DNA of 64,000 nucleotides from Ideonella benzenivorans (GTDB lineage Bacteria; Pseudomonadota; Gammaproteobacteria; Burkholderiales; Burkholderiaceae_C): NCBI RefSeq assembly GCF_020387415.1, contig NZ_JAGWCB010000008.1, positions 201,690 to 265,689 on the forward strand, read 5' to 3'. This document shows positions 22,163 to 29,921 of the stretch, piece after piece. The notes under the pieces are model-generated. The model saw nothing but the letters and a program-made list of their open reading frames with translations, made no database searches and had not been told where the DNA came from. The first letter of the stretch is position 1, and each line of letters begins with the position of its first letter. Position numbers and translations under genes: made by a program.

Positions 22163-24022
22163 ATGAACGGTCTTTCCCCTGTGCTTCTGCGGTCTGGTGC
22201 CCACGGTCGGTGGGGGCGCCTGCGTTGGGGGGGCGCGCTGCTGGCGCTCAGCCTGGCGGCCTGTCAGACGGCGGTGCCGGTGGCGCCCGCACCGGCCAGT
22301 GTGGCGCCAGAGCTGGCCACCGGCTGGCAAGCCAAGCCCGGCTGGTGGTTCGACCACCAGGCCGTGGCCGCGGCCAACCCGCTGGCCGCGGCGGCTGGGG
22401 CTGAAATGCTGCGCGCAGGCGGCTCGGCCGTGGACGCCGCGGTGGCCGTGCAGATGGTGCTGGCCCTGGTGGAGCCCCAATCCAGCGGCATTGGCGGCGG
22501 TGGCTTTCTGCTGCTGTGGGATGGTCAGGCCCTGGAGGCCTGGGACGGCCGCGAGACCGCGCCCGCCGCCGCCACCGAACGCCTGTTCCTCAAGCCCGAC
22601 GGCCAGCCCATGGCCTTTGCCGACGCGGTGCAGGGCGGCCGGGCGGTGGGCGTGCCCGGCGCCGTGGCCATGCTCGAAGCCGTGCACCGCGCCCATGGCC
22701 GACTGCCCTGGGCCCGGCTGTTCCAGCCCGCCATCCGCCTGGCCGACGCCGGCTTTGCCATCAGCCCGCGCCTGTACAGCCTGCTGCAGGACAGCAAGGT
22801 GCTGAAGGCCGACCCGGCCGCCCGGGCCTATTACTACCAGCCCGAGGTGGCCGGCCAAGCCCTGCAACCCTGGCCGGTGGGCCATGTGCTGCGCAACCCC
22901 GCACTGGCCGAGGTGCTGCGCCGCATCGCCCAGCAGGGCAGCCGCGCGCTGCTGACCGGCCCGGTGGCCGCCAGCATCGTGGCCAAGGTGCGCAGCCACC
23001 CCGGCAACCCCGGCCTGCTGACCGAGGCCGATTTGGCCGCCTACCGGCCGGCGAAGCGCGCGGCCCTGTGCGCCGACTGGCGCGCCCTGCGCGTCTGCGG
23101 CATGCCGCCGCCCTCGTCGGGCGAGATCGCCATCGCCCAGATCCTGACCCTGCTGGACGCGCTGCCCCCGGCCAGCGGCCCCGCGCTGAAGGACGGCCAC
23201 CCCACGGTGGAGACGCTGCACCGCTACACCGAGGCCGCCAACCTGGCCTTTGCCGACCGCGCCCTCTACGTGGGCGACCCCGCCTTCGTGAAGCCGCCGG
23301 CCGGCCGCTGGGCCAGCCTGCTGGACCCGGCCTACCTGCACCAGCGCGCCACGCTCATCGGCCCACGCGCCATGGGCAGTGCCACCGCCGGCGTGCCGCC
23401 CGGCGCCACCGTGGCCTACGGGCCCGCCGCCCCGCAGCCCGAGCACGGCACCAGCCACATCAGCATCGTCGACGCGCAAGGCCAGGCCATTGCCTTCACC
23501 ACCACGGTGGAAAGCGCCTTCGGCACCGGCCTGCTGGTGGATGGCGGCACCGGCCTGCCCGGCGGCTTCCTGCTCAACAACCAGCTGACCGACTTCAACT
23601 TTGCCCCTGACGACGCCCAGGGCCGGCCCACCGCCAACCGGGTGCAGCCCGGCAAGCGCCCCCGCTCCAGCATGAGCCCCACGCTGGTCTTCCAGCGCGA
23701 CAACGGCCAGTTGCGGATGACCCTGGGCTCCCCCGGCGGCGCGGCCATCATTCATTACGTGACCAAACTGCTGCTGGGCACCCAGGTGTGGGGCCTGGAC
23801 GCCCAACAGGCCGCCAACCTGCCCAATTTCGGGAGTTTCAACGGCCCCACCGTGTTGGAGGCGGGTCAATTCGGCCCCGACACCACCGCCGGCCTGAAAA
23901 CCCTGGGCCACGAGGTGCGCGAAATGGAACTCAACAGCGGCGCCCAACTGCTGCAGCGGCGCGACGGCTGCTGGTTTGGCGCGGCCGACCCGCGGCGGGA
24001 GGGGGCGGTGGAGGGGAATTGA
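22163..24022 (+). CDS. ggt: gamma-glutamyltransferase, predicted lipoprotein
   Basis: 619 residues. Cleaves gamma-glutamyl bonds (glutathione and relatives) outside the cytoplasm. The N-terminus ends in ALSLAACQT, a lipobox with C34, so the protein is predicted to be lipid-anchored rather than free. The self-cleaving maturation site and nucleophile are T430 in EHGTSHISIVD. Other family motifs: NPLAAAAGAEMLRAGGSAVDAAVAVQMVLALVEPQSSGIGGGGF (residues 73-116), and MSPTLVF and LGSPGGAAI in the small subunit. Divergent from the ABC exporter. A family-typical length. Confidence 0.93.
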   Translation: MNGLSPVLLRSGAHGRWGRLRWGGALLALSLAACQTAVPVAPAPASVAPELATGWQAKPGWWFDHQAVAAANPLAAAAGAEMLRAGGSAVDAAVAVQMVLALVEPQSSGIGGGGFLLLWDGQALEAWDGRETAPAAATERLFLKPDGQPMAFADAVQGGRAVGVPGAVAMLEAVHRAHGRLPWARLFQPAIRLADAGFAISPRLYSLLQDSKVLKADPAARAYYYQPEVAGQALQPWPVGHVLRNPALAEVLRRIAQQGSRALLTGPVAASIVAKVRSHPGNPGLLTEADLAAYRPAKRAALCADWRALRVCGMPPPSSGEIAIAQILTLLDALPPASGPALKDGHPTVETLHRYTEAANLAFADRALYVGDPAFVKPPAGRWASLLDPAYLHQRATLIGPRAMGSATAGVPPGATVAYGPAAPQPEHGTSHISIVDAQGQAIAFTTTVESAFGTGLLVDGGTGLPGGFLLNNQLTDFNFAPDDAQGRPTANRVQPGKRPRSSMSPTLVFQRDNGQLRMTLGSPGGAAIIHYVTKLLLGTQVWGLDAQQAANLPNFGSFNGPTVLEAGQFGPDTTAGLKTLGHEVREMELNSGAQLLQRRDGCWFGAADPRREGAVEGN

Positions 24023-24544
24023 GTGGCGGGTGTCTGGCTGCAAATTGTTTCTGTACGAAGCCAAAGCCGGTATGGCGGGAGAAATCCATCGTTTTGTGGA
24101 TGGCCGGTGGCCGACCTGTTGCAGCGACCCTTTTGTCGCTCTGTTGTGAAATGATATTATGATAGGGGCTTCTCAAATCAAATCGATCCCAGCATTTGTA
24201 GAAATACTGGCGTCAGGATGTTCTTCTGGTTCATCAAGGTTGTTCATGGCGAGAAGTGGGGTCGATAGATGATTGGGCGGCATGGCATTATTTGTGGAGA
24301 GCAAAAGTTGGGGTTTTCATTGTTTTCCCAACCGCCAAGAATCTCTCAGATTCCATGGCCAGTACCTGGATCGCCATCTTGTTTCTGATTGTGGTCTGAT
24401 GGCTCAGAGGGGAGCCTCCGCGCTGGCGCTGGGGTATTTGATTTCAACTGAAATTAATTCAAGATGAGCAAGATTTGTTTTTGATTAATTTCCGTGATTT
24501 TCTGAAAATTTCTGTCGAAATTATTTCGCCACCCGGGGGTATTG
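24023..24544. other. A/T-rich intergenic region, 522 bases
   Basis: Base composition drops clearly below the rest of the window from about 24040. No protein of a known family or good coding frame is seen. A 64-residue open frame at 24273-24467 has no ribosome site or family pattern and is not called. One promoter-like pair occurs at 24133-24160, but no gene starts for almost 400 bases after it. The stretch may be a remnant of transferred DNA or hold an untranslated transcript. Confidence 0.5.
24133..24160 (+). promoter_or_regulatory. candidate sigma70 promoter in the A/T-rich region
   Basis: TTGTCG at 24133-24138 and TATTAT at 24155-24160 with a 16-base spacer. Chance matches are likelier in A/T-rich sequence, so this is tentative. 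It would transcribe towards the orphan membrane protein gene at 24545. Confidence 0.35.
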
Positions 24545-24943
24545 ATGCTGGAGTTCATGGTTATCGGTTTGGTGATTTTCATTGCTCTATTCGTCGCGGC
24601 AACGAAAAAGGGTATATCTTCCTTGGGGGTGCGAACCAAGAGAATGCTTTCCGTTGCCGCGAAAGGCTCCCAGGAGTCTGTTCTGAAATCCGTCATAAGG
24701 TTTGCACAACAGTCGGGCTACAAGGTTGTTGCACTTGATGAAAAAAGAGGTCACCTGGTTCTGGAAGAACCGGCGTCTCTTTTCAGCTGGGGCTTTTTCT
24801 TTCCTGTATTCGTCTCGGCACAACAGGATGGCTCAAGCTTGATCGAGGTTGGCATTAAAAGTAAATTCTCTCAATGTGGCCCTGTTGTGTCCCGTTCACA
24901 CGAGAGATTCGTGACAGGCCTTAAGGCCGCCCTGTTTGAATGA
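24545..24943 (+). CDS. orphan small membrane-anchored protein
   Basis: 132 residues; not recognised. One N-terminal membrane helix (MLEFMVIGLVIFIALFVAAT), then a basic, soluble part with a possible alpha/beta fold (SVLKSVIRFAQQSGYKVVALDEKRGHLVLEEP, then a hydrophobic SWGFFFPVFVSAQ segment and SLIEVGIKSKFS). The layout recalls small proteins that process or correct surface charges, but no function can be given. GGGGG lies about six bases upstream of the ATG. Codon use is much less G/C-biased than that of its neighbours, a sign of transfer. Confidence 0.65.
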   Translation: MLEFMVIGLVIFIALFVAATKKGISSLGVRTKRMLSVAAKGSQESVLKSVIRFAQQSGYKVVALDEKRGHLVLEEPASLFSWGFFFPVFVSAQQDGSSLIEVGIKSKFSQCGPVVSRSHERFVTGLKAALFE

Positions 24944-25112
24944 GCTCATCAGAACCTGCTTGCGCAGGCCCGCTGTCGGTTCAGATTGTCAAATATTAAC
25001 TGCAGAGCAGGCGTGGCTCTATATCTGCCGCTTCTGTCGTCGGTTTCACTGTGGGTCCAACTCGGACGCCAATGCTTCACATCGTCGTTGGGTAACCTGA
25101 GCGCTGGTCACT

Positions 25113-25412
25113 ATGAGTCCAAACAAAGTCGATCGCACCAAGGTGAGAAAACTCACCGACCTGCCCAACGTCGGGAAAGCCATGGCCGAAGATCTTCGGT
25201 TGCTTGGTTTTTCTTCGCCAGAACAGATCGCAGGGGCATGCCCGTTTGAGATGTATCACCGCCTCGGTGTGATCACGGCCATGCGTCACGATCCATGCGT
25301 CATGGATGTGTTCATGTCCATCACGACGTTCTTGAACGGCGGTCCCTCCCGTCCGTGGTGGGAGTTCACCGAAGCGCGAAAGGCCGCTGGCCTTGGAACG
25401 GTGGAGAAATGA
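25113..25412 (+). CDS. helix-hairpin-helix protein (Cdd1/pathogenicity-locus type)
   Basis: 99 residues. The segment VRKLTDLPNVGKAMAEDLRLLGFSSPEQIAG (about 11-41) is a helix-hairpin-helix motif like that of the TfoX C-terminal/Cdd1 group, and PFEMYHRLG and the C-terminal PWWEFTEARKA are also typical of that group. It may bind DNA without sequence preference; no role is established. The TGA stop overlaps the ATG of the next gene in ATGA. It belongs to the lower-GC patch; genes of this type move often between genomes. Confidence 0.8.
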   Translation: MSPNKVDRTKVRKLTDLPNVGKAMAEDLRLLGFSSPEQIAGACPFEMYHRLGVITAMRHDPCVMDVFMSITTFLNGGPSRPWWEFTEARKAAGLGTVEK

Positions 25413-25594
25413 AGTTCGGCTGCACCATGGTGTATGTCTCTTCGGTCCCTGATGCCCTGTCCTTCTATGAGAAGGCCTTCGGGTTTCAGGTTCGCTTTCT
25501 CCATGAATCCGAGCAGTACGGTGGATTGGAATCGGGCTCGACCATCCGGGCCGTTGCGTCCCTGACGGCGCTGTGCTCGCTGTTGGCCGGTTGA
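25409..25594 (+). pseudogene. truncated VOC/glyoxalase-like gene
   Basis: 61 residues. The first 45 (MKFGCTMVYVSSVPDALSFY, then EKAFGFQVRFLHES and YGGLESGST) match the start of vicinal-oxygen-chelate proteins, which normally run 110-130 residues. After ESGST the sequence (IRAVASLTALCSLLAG) no longer fits and a stop follows, so more than half of the domain and its metal ligands are missing. It overlaps the preceding gene in ATGA, the normal cassette-like arrangement. Deletion or replacement of the 3' part is the simplest explanation. Confidence 0.65.
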
Positions 25595-25636
25595 CCTGTC
25601 AGCAGGGACGGGAAGGTTCTTGAGGGGCAGCGCCAG

Positions 25637-25912
25637 ATGAAGCGCGCCAGTGGCGAATCCTTGGTCGCGCTGGAGGCGCTGCTGCGCGAACTCCGCTCCT
25701 TGGCAGGGGTGACCGAGCGGAAGCCGGGGATCTTCTATCGCCAGGGCGGGGCGTTCCTTCACTTTCACGAAGATCCGGCCGGGCCGTTCGCCGACGTCAA
25801 GCTTGACGGCGCCGCGTTCAGCCGTTGGCCCGTCAACACCGAGGACGAGCGGGCACTGTTGCTGACCCAGGTGCGGTGGGCCTTGGTGGCGGGTAGGCGC
25901 GGAGGCCTGTGA
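25637..25912 (+). CDS. small conserved-looking protein of unknown function
   Basis: 91 residues; no family named with confidence. Pattern: an N-terminal helix (LVALEALLRELRSLAGV), then TERKPGIFYRQGGAFLHFHEDPAGPFADVKLDG, which reads as beta strands with HFHEDP as the most distinctive part, then a final helix (TEDERALLLTQVRWALVAG). Cytoplasmic, no signal peptide. G/C use returns to the level of the main genome. It follows the truncated VOC gene. Confidence 0.6.
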   Translation: MKRASGESLVALEALLRELRSLAGVTERKPGIFYRQGGAFLHFHEDPAGPFADVKLDGAAFSRWPVNTEDERALLLTQVRWALVAGRRGGL

Positions 25913-25957
25913 GGGGGATCCGTCCGCATCCCAAACGCCCGATCGCGGAAACGGGTA

Positions 25958-25983
25958 AAATTACATTTCGACAAATGTAATTT
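25958..25983. promoter_or_regulatory. perfect 11-bp-arm palindrome upstream of the HAD-MtlD gene
   Basis: AAATTACATTT at 25958-25968 and AAATGTAATTT at 25973-25983 are exact inverted copies around CGAC. The site stands out as A/T-only arms in a G/C-rich region and lies 47 bases before the start. TGTAAT at 25977-25982 inside the right arm matches a -10 box in 5 of 6 positions, so a regulator bound here should block or shape initiation. A hairpin role in RNA is less likely but possible. Confidence 0.75.
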
Positions 25984-26030
25984 GGGTTCGCAGCCTGCCT
26001 GTGGACCCTTGAGAAGGGACCCCCCGCCGG

Positions 26031-28190
26031 ATGCTCAAGTTCAAGGACCAGACCCTCGAAAGCGCCATCTTTGACATGGATGGAACGATGTTCGACACCG
26101 AACGTCTGCGGTTCCAAACGCTCTCCCAGGCGGCCGAAGAGTTGTTCGGTCAGCCGTTCACGGAGGCGGTGCTGATGGGGTCTCTGGGCCTGAGCGCCAC
26201 CAAGGCGGAAGCGCTGGCCAAGCAGCATTACGGGGATGACTTCCCCTACGCCGCCATCCGCCGGCGGGCCGATGCGCTGGAGCTGCAGCATGTGCGCAGC
26301 CAGGGCGTGCCGATCAAGCCGGGTCTGCTGCCGGTGCTGGAGCGGCTGCGCCGCGCCGGGTTGAAGATGGCGGTGGCCACCTCCAGCCGCCGGGCGATCG
26401 CCGAGGAATACCTGATCAATGCCAACGTGTTCAAGTATTTCGACCTGCTGGTCTGCGGCGACGAGGTGCAGCAGGGCAAGCCGCACCCGGAGATCTTTCT
26501 GCGGGCGGCGCAGGCGCTGAACAGCGCGCCGGCCGATTGCCTGATGTTCGAGGATTCGGAGAACGGCCTGCGGGCCGCGGCGGATGCCGGCGGGCGCGCG
26601 ATCCTGGTGGAAGACATCAAGCCGCCGCGGCCCGAGGTGGCGGCGCGTGCCTTCGCCCGTTATCCCTCGCTGCGAGCCTTCCTGCTGGAGCTGGCGGCTT
26701 GCACGCCCAAGCTGCCGATGCCCGCGCTGACCGAGCCCTTTCCCCAGGCCGTCAACCTGTTGAAGGCCGGCGTCCATGGCTTCGGGGCGATGGGGGGCGG
26801 CTATCTGGCGCAGGTGTTCTCGCACTGGGATGGCTACACCCGCCCGCACGAGATCATGGCCTCCACCGGCAACGCGCTGCTGCGCGAGGCGGTCAACGCC
26901 TTTGGCAAGTACAGCGTGCGCTACGGCAGCCTGGCCTTTGACCAGACCATCGCGCGCATGCGCATGGTCGATGCGGCGGACACGGCGGCCATCGCCAGCA
27001 TGTACCGCGACTGCGAGATCGTCGGCCTGTGCCTGCCGGAGCAGGCGGTGGCCGCGCAGGCTGGCACCATTGCCCAGGGCTTGGCCGAGCGTTTTCGCAG
27101 CCACGGCCAGAGCCTGACGGTGCTGGTGGTGCTCAACAAGGTGGGCGGCGCGCAGTTCGTGCGGGACCGGGTGGGCGAGGCCTTGCGCACCCAGGTGTCC
27201 GCACGCGAGGCGCGGCAGATCCTGGCCCGCACCGAATTCACCGAGACGGTGGTGACGCGCATCGTCTCCAAGCTGGGCGAGGAGGCGCTGCTGCGCCAGC
27301 TGCGCATCAAGCACGACCTGTATGCGCAGAACGTGGCCCAGGTGCGCGAGACGCCGGTGGACACCCAGGCGATGGTGGCCGCGGTCAGCGCCGAGCATGC
27401 CGACGCATTGGCGCCCATCGTCAGCTCACTGCGCGACGCGGCCGAGCCAGCCAGCGCGATGGCGCCGCTGCACCTGGTGCTGTTCCACAGCGAGCCGGAC
27501 ATGGCGCTCTACGTCCAGCAGGGCAGCGAGTTGCTGGAGCACCTGCGCCAGGTGGACACCGTGCCGGACATCCGCGAGATCCAGACGCTGAAGAACCGGC
27601 TGTGGAACGGCCCGCACGCCATCATCGCCTGGTATGCGGCGCTGCTGGGGCACGCCACCATCGGCCATGCGATGGGCGACACCCGGGTGCAGGCGCTGCT
27701 GGACCATCTGTTGGATGCCGAACTGCAGCCGGCGCTGGCGGCGCTGTACCCGGCCCAGCGTCAGCGCATGGCCGATCTGGCCAAGACCTTCCGCACGCGC
27801 AGCGCCCATGCCTTCAAGGACCCCTGCGAGCGGGTCGGCCGGGACCCCTTGCGCAAGCTGCAGCGCGAAGAGCGGGTGCTGGGCAGCCTGGCGATGGTGC
27901 AGGCCCAGGGCGGCAGCGGCAGCGGCCTGGCCCTGGGGGCGGCGCTGGCCATCTGGTATGCCTTGCATCACCCGGGCGCCGCCGAGGAGGCGGAATGCGC
28001 TACCCTGCGCGCGCTGTACGCGCCGCGCCAATCCCTGGCGGATGTGCTGACTTGGCAGGGCGATTACCACGGCCGGCCGTATCCCGGCCTGCAGGCCGAG
28101 CGGGATGCCGAGCTGCTGGCGGCGGTCCAGGGGCATCTGGACCGCCTGCAGGCCGAGGGCCTGCGCTATCTGGACCAGCCGGTCCTGTAG
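26031..28190 (+). CDS. mtlD: HAD phosphatase-mannitol-1-phosphate dehydrogenase fusion
   Basis: 719 residues in two parts. Residues 1-220 are a HAD phosphatase of the beta-phosphoglucomutase type: motif I FDMDGTMFDTE (nucleophile D15, D17), motif II VATSS, motif III lysine in GKPHPEIF, motif IV FEDSENG. Residues about 235-719 are a polyol-specific long-chain dehydrogenase: nucleotide-binding GFGAMGGGYLAQVF and the catalytic K521-x4-N526-x2-H529 set. This architecture is that of the bifunctional MtlD of Acinetobacter, which reduces fructose-6-phosphate to mannitol-1-phosphate and then removes the phosphate, giving mannitol as an osmoprotectant. The same activity is inferred here. It follows the palindrome and stands alone without PTS genes, which argues against mannitol uptake and catabolism. 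Confidence 0.88.
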   Translation: MLKFKDQTLESAIFDMDGTMFDTERLRFQTLSQAAEELFGQPFTEAVLMGSLGLSATKAEALAKQHYGDDFPYAAIRRRADALELQHVRSQGVPIKPGLLPVLERLRRAGLKMAVATSSRRAIAEEYLINANVFKYFDLLVCGDEVQQGKPHPEIFLRAAQALNSAPADCLMFEDSENGLRAAADAGGRAILVEDIKPPRPEVAARAFARYPSLRAFLLELAACTPKLPMPALTEPFPQAVNLLKAGVHGFGAMGGGYLAQVFSHWDGYTRPHEIMASTGNALLREAVNAFGKYSVRYGSLAFDQTIARMRMVDAADTAAIASMYRDCEIVGLCLPEQAVAAQAGTIAQGLAERFRSHGQSLTVLVVLNKVGGAQFVRDRVGEALRTQVSAREARQILARTEFTETVVTRIVSKLGEEALLRQLRIKHDLYAQNVAQVRETPVDTQAMVAAVSAEHADALAPIVSSLRDAAEPASAMAPLHLVLFHSEPDMALYVQQGSELLEHLRQVDTVPDIREIQTLKNRLWNGPHAIIAWYAALLGHATIGHAMGDTRVQALLDHLLDAELQPALAALYPAQRQRMADLAKTFRTRSAHAFKDPCERVGRDPLRKLQREERVLGSLAMVQAQGGSGSGLALGAALAIWYALHHPGAAEEAECATLRALYAPRQSLADVLTWQGDYHGRPYPGLQAERDAELLAAVQGHLDRLQAEGLRYLDQPVL

Positions 28191-28205
28191 AACCGGCGGC
28201 GGAGC

Positions 28206-28910
28206 TCAGGCGCCCAGCAGTTCCACTTCGAACAGCAGGGTGGCGTTGGGGGGGATGACGCCACCGGCGCCGCGCGGGCCGTAGCCCAGGTGCGGCGGGA
28301 TCACCAGCACGCGGGTGCCGCCCACCTTCATGCCCTGCACGCCGTCGTCCCAGCCGCGGATGACCATGCCGCGACCCAGGTGGAAGCGGAAGGGCTCGTC
28401 GCGGTCCTTGCTGGAGTCGAACTTGGCGCCACGGCCTTCCGGGGCGCTGGGGTCGTACAGCCAGCCGGTGTAGTGCACCGTCACCTGGCGGCCGGCGCGG
28501 GCTTTGTCGCCGCTGCCTTCGGTCACGTCGGTGATCTGCAGCTGCGGGCGCTCCGGCGTGGGCAGCAGTTCCACTTCGAACACCAGGGTGGCGTTGGGGG
28601 GGATGACGCCGCCGGCACCACGGGCGCCGTAGCCCAGCTCGGGGGCGATGGTCAGCACGCGCTTGCCGCCCACCTTCATGCCTTGCACGCCCAGGTCCCA
28701 GCCCGGGATGACCATGCCGGCGCCCAGATCGAACTCGAAGGGCTCGTCGCGGTCCAGGCTGGAGTCGAACTTGCGGCCACGCTGCTTGTCGGCGGCCGGG
28801 TCGTGCAGCCAGCCGGTGTAGTGCACGGTCACGCTCTGGCCGGCCTGGGCTTCGGGGCCGTTGCCGGTCACCAGGTCGTCGATCTGCAGGCCTTCGGGGA
28901 GGGAGCTCAT
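28206..28910 (-). CDS. peptidyl-prolyl isomerase with two FKBP domains
   Basis: 234 residues. Two near-identical FKBP domains in tandem (about 5-113 and 121-232). Each contains VTVHYTGWL, a GRKFDSS or GAKFDSS loop, MVIPGWD or [15 protein letters not shown] or GMKVGGTR, and GVIPPNATL(V/L)FEVELL at the end. No signal peptide, so cytoplasmic. Most single-domain relatives in these bacteria have 110-120 residues, so this gene carries an internal duplication. Both domains keep the aromatic pocket residues (Y, F, D, W). Convergent with the HAD-MtlD gene. Confidence 0.92.
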
Positions 28911-29003
28911 GGGAGGTCTCTTTCTGGGTATCGCTGAAAAAAGGGGATGATGCCATCGTCCGCCCTGGCCCGGCCAGGGCAGGGCGATCGACCTCGGGGG
29001 CGT

Positions 29004-29921
29004 TCAATCCGCCGGCACCGGCCAGCGTTGGGCCCAGGCCCGAATGGCTGCGGCCAGCCAGTCGCCCAGGGTGGTGCCGGGCAGGCCGGCCGGCAGGCCC
29101 AGGGCCTGGCCGGCGCGCTGCAGCGCGGCCAGTGGGGCGCGCAGGTCCAGCGGGGTGGCGCCGTTCTGCTTGGAGAGCTTCTGGCCATCGGCGGCCAGCA
29201 CCAGCGGGGTGTGCAGGTAGCGCGGCGTGGGCAGCCCCAGCAGGCGCTGCAGGTGGATCTGGCGCGGGGTGTTGTCGGCCAGGTCCTCGCCGCGCACCAC
29301 GTCAGTGATGCCCTGGTCGGCGTCGTCCACCACCACCGCCAGCTGGTAGGCCCACAGGCCGTCGGCCCGCTTGAGCACGAAGTCGCCCACGGCCTGGGTC
29401 AGGTTCTGGGTCAGCGGGCCCAGGCGGCGGTCGCACCAATCGATGTGCAGGTCGCCGCCGTCGGGCGCGTCGGTGCGCAGGCGCCAGGCGCGGGCGGCTT
29501 TGCCGTGCAGGCCGTGGCGGCAGGTGCCGGGGTAAACCAGCTCGCCATGCCGTTCATGGCCGTGGCCCAGGGCGGCCTGGGCCTGGGCGATTTCCTTGCG
29601 GCTGCAGCCACAGGGGTAGGCCTGGCCGGCATCCACCAGGCGCTGCAGGGCGGCGGCATAAGCCTCGCCCCGGCGGGATTGCCACCACACTTTGCCGTCG
29701 GGCTGCAGGCCGCAGCGGGCCAGTTGGCGCAGGATCTCGTCGCCCGCGCCGGGCACGCAGCGCGGGGTGTCCACGTCTTCGATGCGCACCCGCCACAGGC
29801 CGCCCTGGGCGCGGGCGTCCAGCCAGCTGGCCAGGGCCGCCACCAGCGAGCCGGCGTGCAGCAGGCCGGTGGGCGAGGGGGCGAAGCGGCCGATGCGGGG
29901 CGTGGAGGCCTCAGGTGTCAT
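29004..29921 (-). CDS. gluQ: glutamyl-Q tRNA(Asp) synthetase
   Basis: 305 residues. A truncated glutamyl-tRNA synthetase lacking the anticodon-binding domain; it attaches glutamate to queuosine at position 34 of tRNA-Asp. The class I signature is [16 protein letters not shown] (residues 11-26, HAG in place of HIGH) and the KMSKS counterpart is KLSKQNG. The zinc site is CGCSRKE with a later YPGTCRHG. The start ATG at 29921 overlaps the end of the LysR gene by 11 bases. Note that queF, needed to make queuosine, is at 61237-61785 in the same window. Confidence 0.93.

Follow-up and report, generated by a model that had tools for sequence, protein, structure and literature searches.

The window, a 64,000-nucleotide stretch of Ideonella benzenivorans DNA, contains an mtlD gene (26031–28190, plus strand). 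According to its reading frame and its Pfam, NCBIfam and PDB matches, it encodes a bifunctional protein in which a HAD phosphatase is joined to a mannitol-1-phosphate dehydrogenase. The frame is single and intact, with 719 codons from an ATG. At 48–73 bp before the start codon lies an inverted repeat (25958–25983) whose 11-bp arms match perfectly around a 4-bp spacer, and a small ORF (25637–25912, plus strand) lies further to the left. To the right, 15 bp from the mtlD stop, is a convergent neighbour, an FKBP-type isomerase gene with two FKBP_C stretches (28206–28910, minus strand).

All parts of the protein are encoded on the plus strand. The phosphatase domain spans residues 13–193 (26067–26609; Pfam HAD_2, E 7.1e-31). 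It is followed by a Rossmann NAD(P)-binding part, residues 250–420 (26778–27290), with GFGAMGGG at 250–257; the Pfam Mannitol_dh match to this part is weak (E 6.2e-4, 20.2 bits against a model cut-off of 27). The Mannitol_dh_C catalytic domain covers residues 518–646 (27582–27968; Pfam, E 4.5e-17) and includes K521, N526 and H529. Alignment columns define a C-terminal tail, residues 659–719 (28005–28187), with a DVLxxxGxYxGxPYxGL block. The NCBIfam family bifunc_MtlD (NF046057) matches residues 3–688 over the whole model (positions 1–683 of 683), scoring 1009.7 bits where 800 are required. The best PDB matches are the solved MtlD chains 7OCN and 7OCP–7OCU (residues 3–647, best E 2.7e-201). From the ORF, the Pfam domains, the full-length family match and the PDB matches it follows that the fusion is real and not due to chance, and the preliminary description of an intact HAD phosphatase fused to a mannitol-1-phosphate dehydrogenase is borne out by the domains and the family score. 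Judged by its sequence, this is an ordinary protein that clearly belongs to a curated family, one for which structures have been solved.

When the sequences are read side by side, the 7OCN-series chain is nearly the same as the Acinetobacter baumannii MtlD of locus L037, to which the window MtlD is 48% identical. The characterised A. baumannii enzyme (PMC6291793) agrees with the window protein in domain order and catalytic residues and is of similar length; its tail diverges after window residue 650. The single-domain mannitol-1-phosphate 5-dehydrogenase 3H2Z has the C-terminal catalytic domain in common with the window protein (residues 525–671, E 1.7e-7), but it is a chain of 382 residues without a phosphatase domain.

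Conserved residues and the upstream region

Conservation was read from an alignment (A2) of the window protein and 27 homologues. The HAD residues D15, D17, T117, S118, K150, E174 and D175 are identical in all 28 rows, as are the nucleotide motif G250-x-G252-x-x-G255, together with G257, and the dehydrogenase residues K521, N526 and H529. The DxD, T/S, K and D motifs and the K-N-H set had already been pointed out in the preliminary description; they lie at the positions given there. We take D15 to be the nucleophile and D17 the acid/base of the phosphatase; the catalytic roles of the motif residues are presumably those assigned within the HAD and polyol-dehydrogenase families. Stricter strings were counted in 81 proteins, namely the window protein and the best 80 of 467 confirmed homologues. 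FDMDGT and GFGA.GGG occur in 81 of 81, ATSSR in 80, EDSENG in 77, GKPHPEIF in 76 and KNR..NG.H in 67.

These columns also bear on the substrate. The enzyme might work on a different sugar phosphate (for example another ketose-/hexitol-phosphate pair), with a phosphatase matched to the product. HAD and polyol dehydrogenase families are generally known to be variable in substrate, and several other HAD equivalogs match the protein below their cut-offs (25 of 43 families, among the matches listed). However, the checked catalytic columns do not vary among the 28 rows, and the score exceeds the cut-off of the equivalog NF046057 by about 210 bits; a different substrate is very unlikely.

The C-terminal block differs in Acinetobacter. 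A2 has seven Acinetobacter rows: six are without two stretches (14 and 5 columns, about 19 together) which are filled in the 21 other rows of the alignment; the seventh (L090) is without the 5-column stretch only. Because these columns are missing in Acinetobacter and identity to the A. baumannii protein is 48%, salt activation is less sure here, and the A. baumannii type of activation may not extend to the window MtlD.

The inverted repeat upstream of mtlD is a candidate operator. Its core (10-bp arms, up to 3 mismatches) has a single occurrence in the genome and none in 100 shuffles of the window. The upstream regions of 24 other mtlD genes, out of more than 80 other copies, were searched for it. 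The repeat is absent from all 24, so a conserved operator was rejected; the repeat may be private to the window lineage, or it may be due to chance. The mtlD upstream regions of Ideonella oryzae, of the congener G001 and of Hydrogenophaga do not have it. Other inverted repeats, with arms of at least 7 bp, are found in 5 of the 24 regions. Scans of 25600–28400 gave no sigma-70-type promoter site and one terminator, against 1.0 expected from shuffles. An Rfam scan of 23500–29500 gave no match at gathering thresholds.

Predicted role in mannitol synthesis

The genome assembly is 4.49 Mb long, in 21 contigs, and 99.04% complete. Single-domain mannitol-1-phosphate 5-dehydrogenase works together with a mannitol PTS, and a genomic link to this system is the mark of the catabolic enzyme. 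That link is absent here: PTS_EIIC (PF02378), the sole PTS family searched, has no match in the genome (control matched in 7 of 14 genomes). The earlier remark that the fusion occurs without a mannitol PTS holds as far as this family goes. In a profile search, mtlD is the single Mannitol_dh_C match in the genome (control matched in 7 of 14 genomes). With neither a PTS_EIIC match nor a second Mannitol_dh_C match, the gene content favours synthesis over uptake and breakdown. A catabolic MtlD, oxidising mannitol-1-phosphate after PTS uptake, is nevertheless worth weighing, as the dehydrogenase half matches mannitol-1-phosphate 5-dehydrogenase models, far below their cut-offs. With no PTS_EIIC in the genome, and with an intact fused phosphatase that would waste mannitol-1-phosphate, a catabolic role is barely credible; synthesis is the natural direction for a fusion of this kind in this genome.

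A mannitol-synthesis function of the window MtlD is very probable. In the reading we prefer, and hold with good confidence, the bifunctional enzyme converts fructose-6-phosphate to mannitol-1-phosphate and this to mannitol, which serves as a compatible solute. The C-terminal dehydrogenase would reduce fructose-6-phosphate with NAD(P)H at the K521/N526/H529 site. The fused N-terminal phosphatase would take the phosphate off mannitol-1-phosphate, making mannitol formation one-way. Under salt or low-water stress, free mannitol would then act alongside trehalose as a compatible solute. MtlD is proposed as a stand-alone enzyme, with one gene for both steps. We infer the substrate, direction, salt activation and osmotic role from the A. 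baumannii relative; enzyme activity, salt induction and an osmoprotective role are predicted for the Ideonella host.

Passages of PMC6291793 report that A. baumannii MtlD reduces fructose-6-phosphate, that a strain deleted for mtlD makes no mannitol and hardly grows at 500 mM NaCl, and that betaine rescues this strain at high salt. The deletion phenotype, as given in those passages, agrees with the earlier statement that the same fusion makes mannitol under salt stress in Acinetobacter. A. baumannii, A. baylyi and Pseudomonas putida are named as mannitol makers under osmotic stress in a part of PMC10241868; MtlD homologues in P. putida strains are among the matches listed. A further excerpt, from a survey whose abstract refers to 312 Acinetobacter genomes, records mtlD in 254 strains (PMC10149724). 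In the open-licence literature, no experiments on the branch of the window MtlD were found.

Mannitol could instead be made mainly as a redox sink, a carbon store or an oxygen-radical quencher, without an osmoprotective purpose. Consistent with this, Pfam and NCBIfam reveal no osmotic-stress gene, osmotic regulator or further solute gene next to mtlD, no conserved partner gene in the best 80 of 467 homologous loci points to osmotic stress, and a trehalose route is present in the genome. The loss of mannitol and of nearly all high-salt growth in the A. baumannii deletion, and its rescue by betaine, argue against it as far as the passages of PMC6291793 go, and we regard it as improbable. Osmoprotection remains the preferred reading. 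Mannitol need not be the main solute, since the genome has an OtsA-type trehalose synthase, about 21.7 kb past the end of the window. The OtsA-type ORF (L122, 991–3390) encodes 799 amino acids, with a hydrophobic N-terminus followed by the trehalose-phosphate synthase part. Among other solute systems, OpuAC-type proteins give two matches in the genome (44.9 and 22.1 bits) and the BCCT carrier gives none (control matched in 4 of 14 genomes). For the ectoine synthase profile the control was silent, matching in 0 of 14 genomes.

Distribution and phylogeny of mtlD

The family cut-off is passed in this genome and in two of 15 congeners, G001 and I. oryzae (G006). No genome passes it among 20 others of the family or 24 others of the order, in a search of 60 genomes, 5 of which fall below 90% completeness or exceed 5% contamination. 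Weaker matches occur in all 60 genomes and all 14 controls; these were not counted, and among the matches listed nearly all fall in the HAD half. In an even sample of the order, at E 1e-60, a match is found in 3 of 399 genomes: this one and two that are probably Methylobacillus caricis and M. arboreus. The suggestion that the DNA comes from a betaproteobacterium was right, as the genus of this genome includes I. oryzae. A described salt-responsive mannitol pathway would thereby extend to a betaproteobacterium beyond the characterised Acinetobacter branch.

A scan of named genomes gave at least 597 stretches, of which 467 were confirmed and the best 80 were used. These best 80 of 467 come from Hydrogenophaga, Comamonas, Verticiella, Oxalicibacterium, Methylobacillus, Lampropedia, Steroidobacter, many Pseudomonas, Pseudodonghicola, many Acinetobacter, two records labelled Pantoea and one Pseudomonadota record. 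They also include metagenome-assembled records labelled Crenarchaeota and Ruminococcaceae (L074, L113), with MtlD-like fusions on long branches. Either the fusion is widely spread or these bins are mislabelled.

The tree holds 58 of the 81 proteins (the window protein and the best 80 of 467); the 23 left out are all Acinetobacter, and G001 is absent. The window protein pairs with that of I. oryzae (98/87), and Hydrogenophaga sp. NFH-34 joins them next (99/96). Among full-length MtlDs, a five-member clade (100/100) contains the window protein, I. oryzae, two Hydrogenophaga and a record labelled Pantoea sp. 18069. Placement of the long branches L098, L074, L113 and L090 is unsure, and seven rows, the window's included, have an unusual amino-acid make-up. 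The MtlDs of I. oryzae and G001 are 77–79% identical to that of the window, and that of Hydrogenophaga sp. NFH-34 is 79% identical; no neighbour genes were found in common between the window's mtlD and those of I. oryzae, G001 and Hydrogenophaga.

The fusion gene (L036, 4001–6142) is also present on a plasmid of Acinetobacter portensis (64.6 kb, typed mobilizable), followed after 194 bp by an IS1-family transposase gene. Outside the window, mtlD is thus seen to be able to travel, as on this mobilizable plasmid.

The genomic site of mtlD

What is mainly new is the position of mtlD, at a site that in close relatives is without the gene. Interest is confined to this patchy presence and change of place, the protein itself being ordinary. 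The mtlD-bearing segment (approximately 25913–28205, plus strand; its left edge is fuzzy, about 25840–25960) is absent between the stretch resembling the ORF at 25637 and FKBP in the congeners G001, I. oryzae and G009, and a comparison of the site finds mtlD missing there in all three. They keep GGT on the left and FKBP, GluQRS and LysR on the right in the same order, together with a stretch 60–68% similar to the small ORF at 25637. GGT, FKBP, GluQRS and LysR are 88–98% identical between the window and these three genomes. ORFs 31030, 31784 and 32932 are 53–74% identical and are possibly not genes; no Pfam match was found in the scanned parts of two of them. Genomes G005 and G013 match the window only from FKBP rightwards, within the stretches compared.

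The interval from GGT to FKBP is variable in length: about 4.2 kb in the window, 4.9 kb in G009, 2.7 kb in I. oryzae and 1.1 kb in G001. The G001 stretch resembling the ORF at 25637 is adjoined by a transposase HTH fragment (HTH_Tnp_1, E 7.8e-17). In I. oryzae, a glycine-rich ORF of 261 amino acids with no Pfam match (L145, 9690–10475, minus strand) stands in the place of mtlD. By eye, a G+C-rich hairpin is seen just past the FKBP stop in G001, I. oryzae and G009; it is absent in the window.

I. oryzae and G001 have a common mtlD neighbourhood, which is different from the window's. Contig C9 of the window genome has the I. oryzae-type site without mtlD; there it measures about 0.8 kb, against about 3.0 kb in I. 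oryzae, where it holds mtlD and a GNAT gene. A blastp comparison of the I. oryzae site with the window genome gave 19 rows, of which 8 on overlapping opposite-strand frames were dropped, the choice of frame being the analyst's; the other 11 span 72–96% identity. mtlD is present at two sites in one genus, and each site is without mtlD in the other lineage. Fourteen other window ORFs (18.9–37.3 kb) have no match in the best 80 of 467 loci at E 1e-10, and at E 1e-3 only three weak LysR matches; some of these loci have little sequence on one side, and ORF18922 and some others are probably not genes.

The G+C content of mtlD is 69.4% (90.6% at third positions), and that of four neighbours is 71.2–75.4% (90.3–92.3%). 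Since mtlD is near its neighbours in G+C, any gain would have been from a similar genome, or old. Divergence alone was rejected as proof of separate acquisitions, as 77% MtlD identity lies within normal divergence; for the same reason, relocation after a single gain, with losses, is equally open. Two separate gains and a single gain followed by relocation and losses are both possible histories. A more far-reaching proposal is that mtlD is a one-gene mobile osmolyte trait, gained separately at two unrelated sites from a pool common to Hydrogenophaga and others, with the window copy lying in a variable interval and controlled by a palindromic operator private to its lineage; we offer this tentatively and consider it rather doubtful. 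The patchy presence of mtlD among close relatives offers a natural way to ask if a single gene alters salt tolerance.

Part of the variable GGT–FKBP interval of the window, 24001–25600, is low in G+C (43–64% per 100 bp, against 70% for the window). Three ORFs lie in it: one of the Cdd1 family, a small one with no Pfam match, and a short glyoxalase-like one. The last of these, a glyoxalase/VOC ORF at 25403–25594, covers only positions 4–38 of the 121 in the Pfam model and looks truncated.
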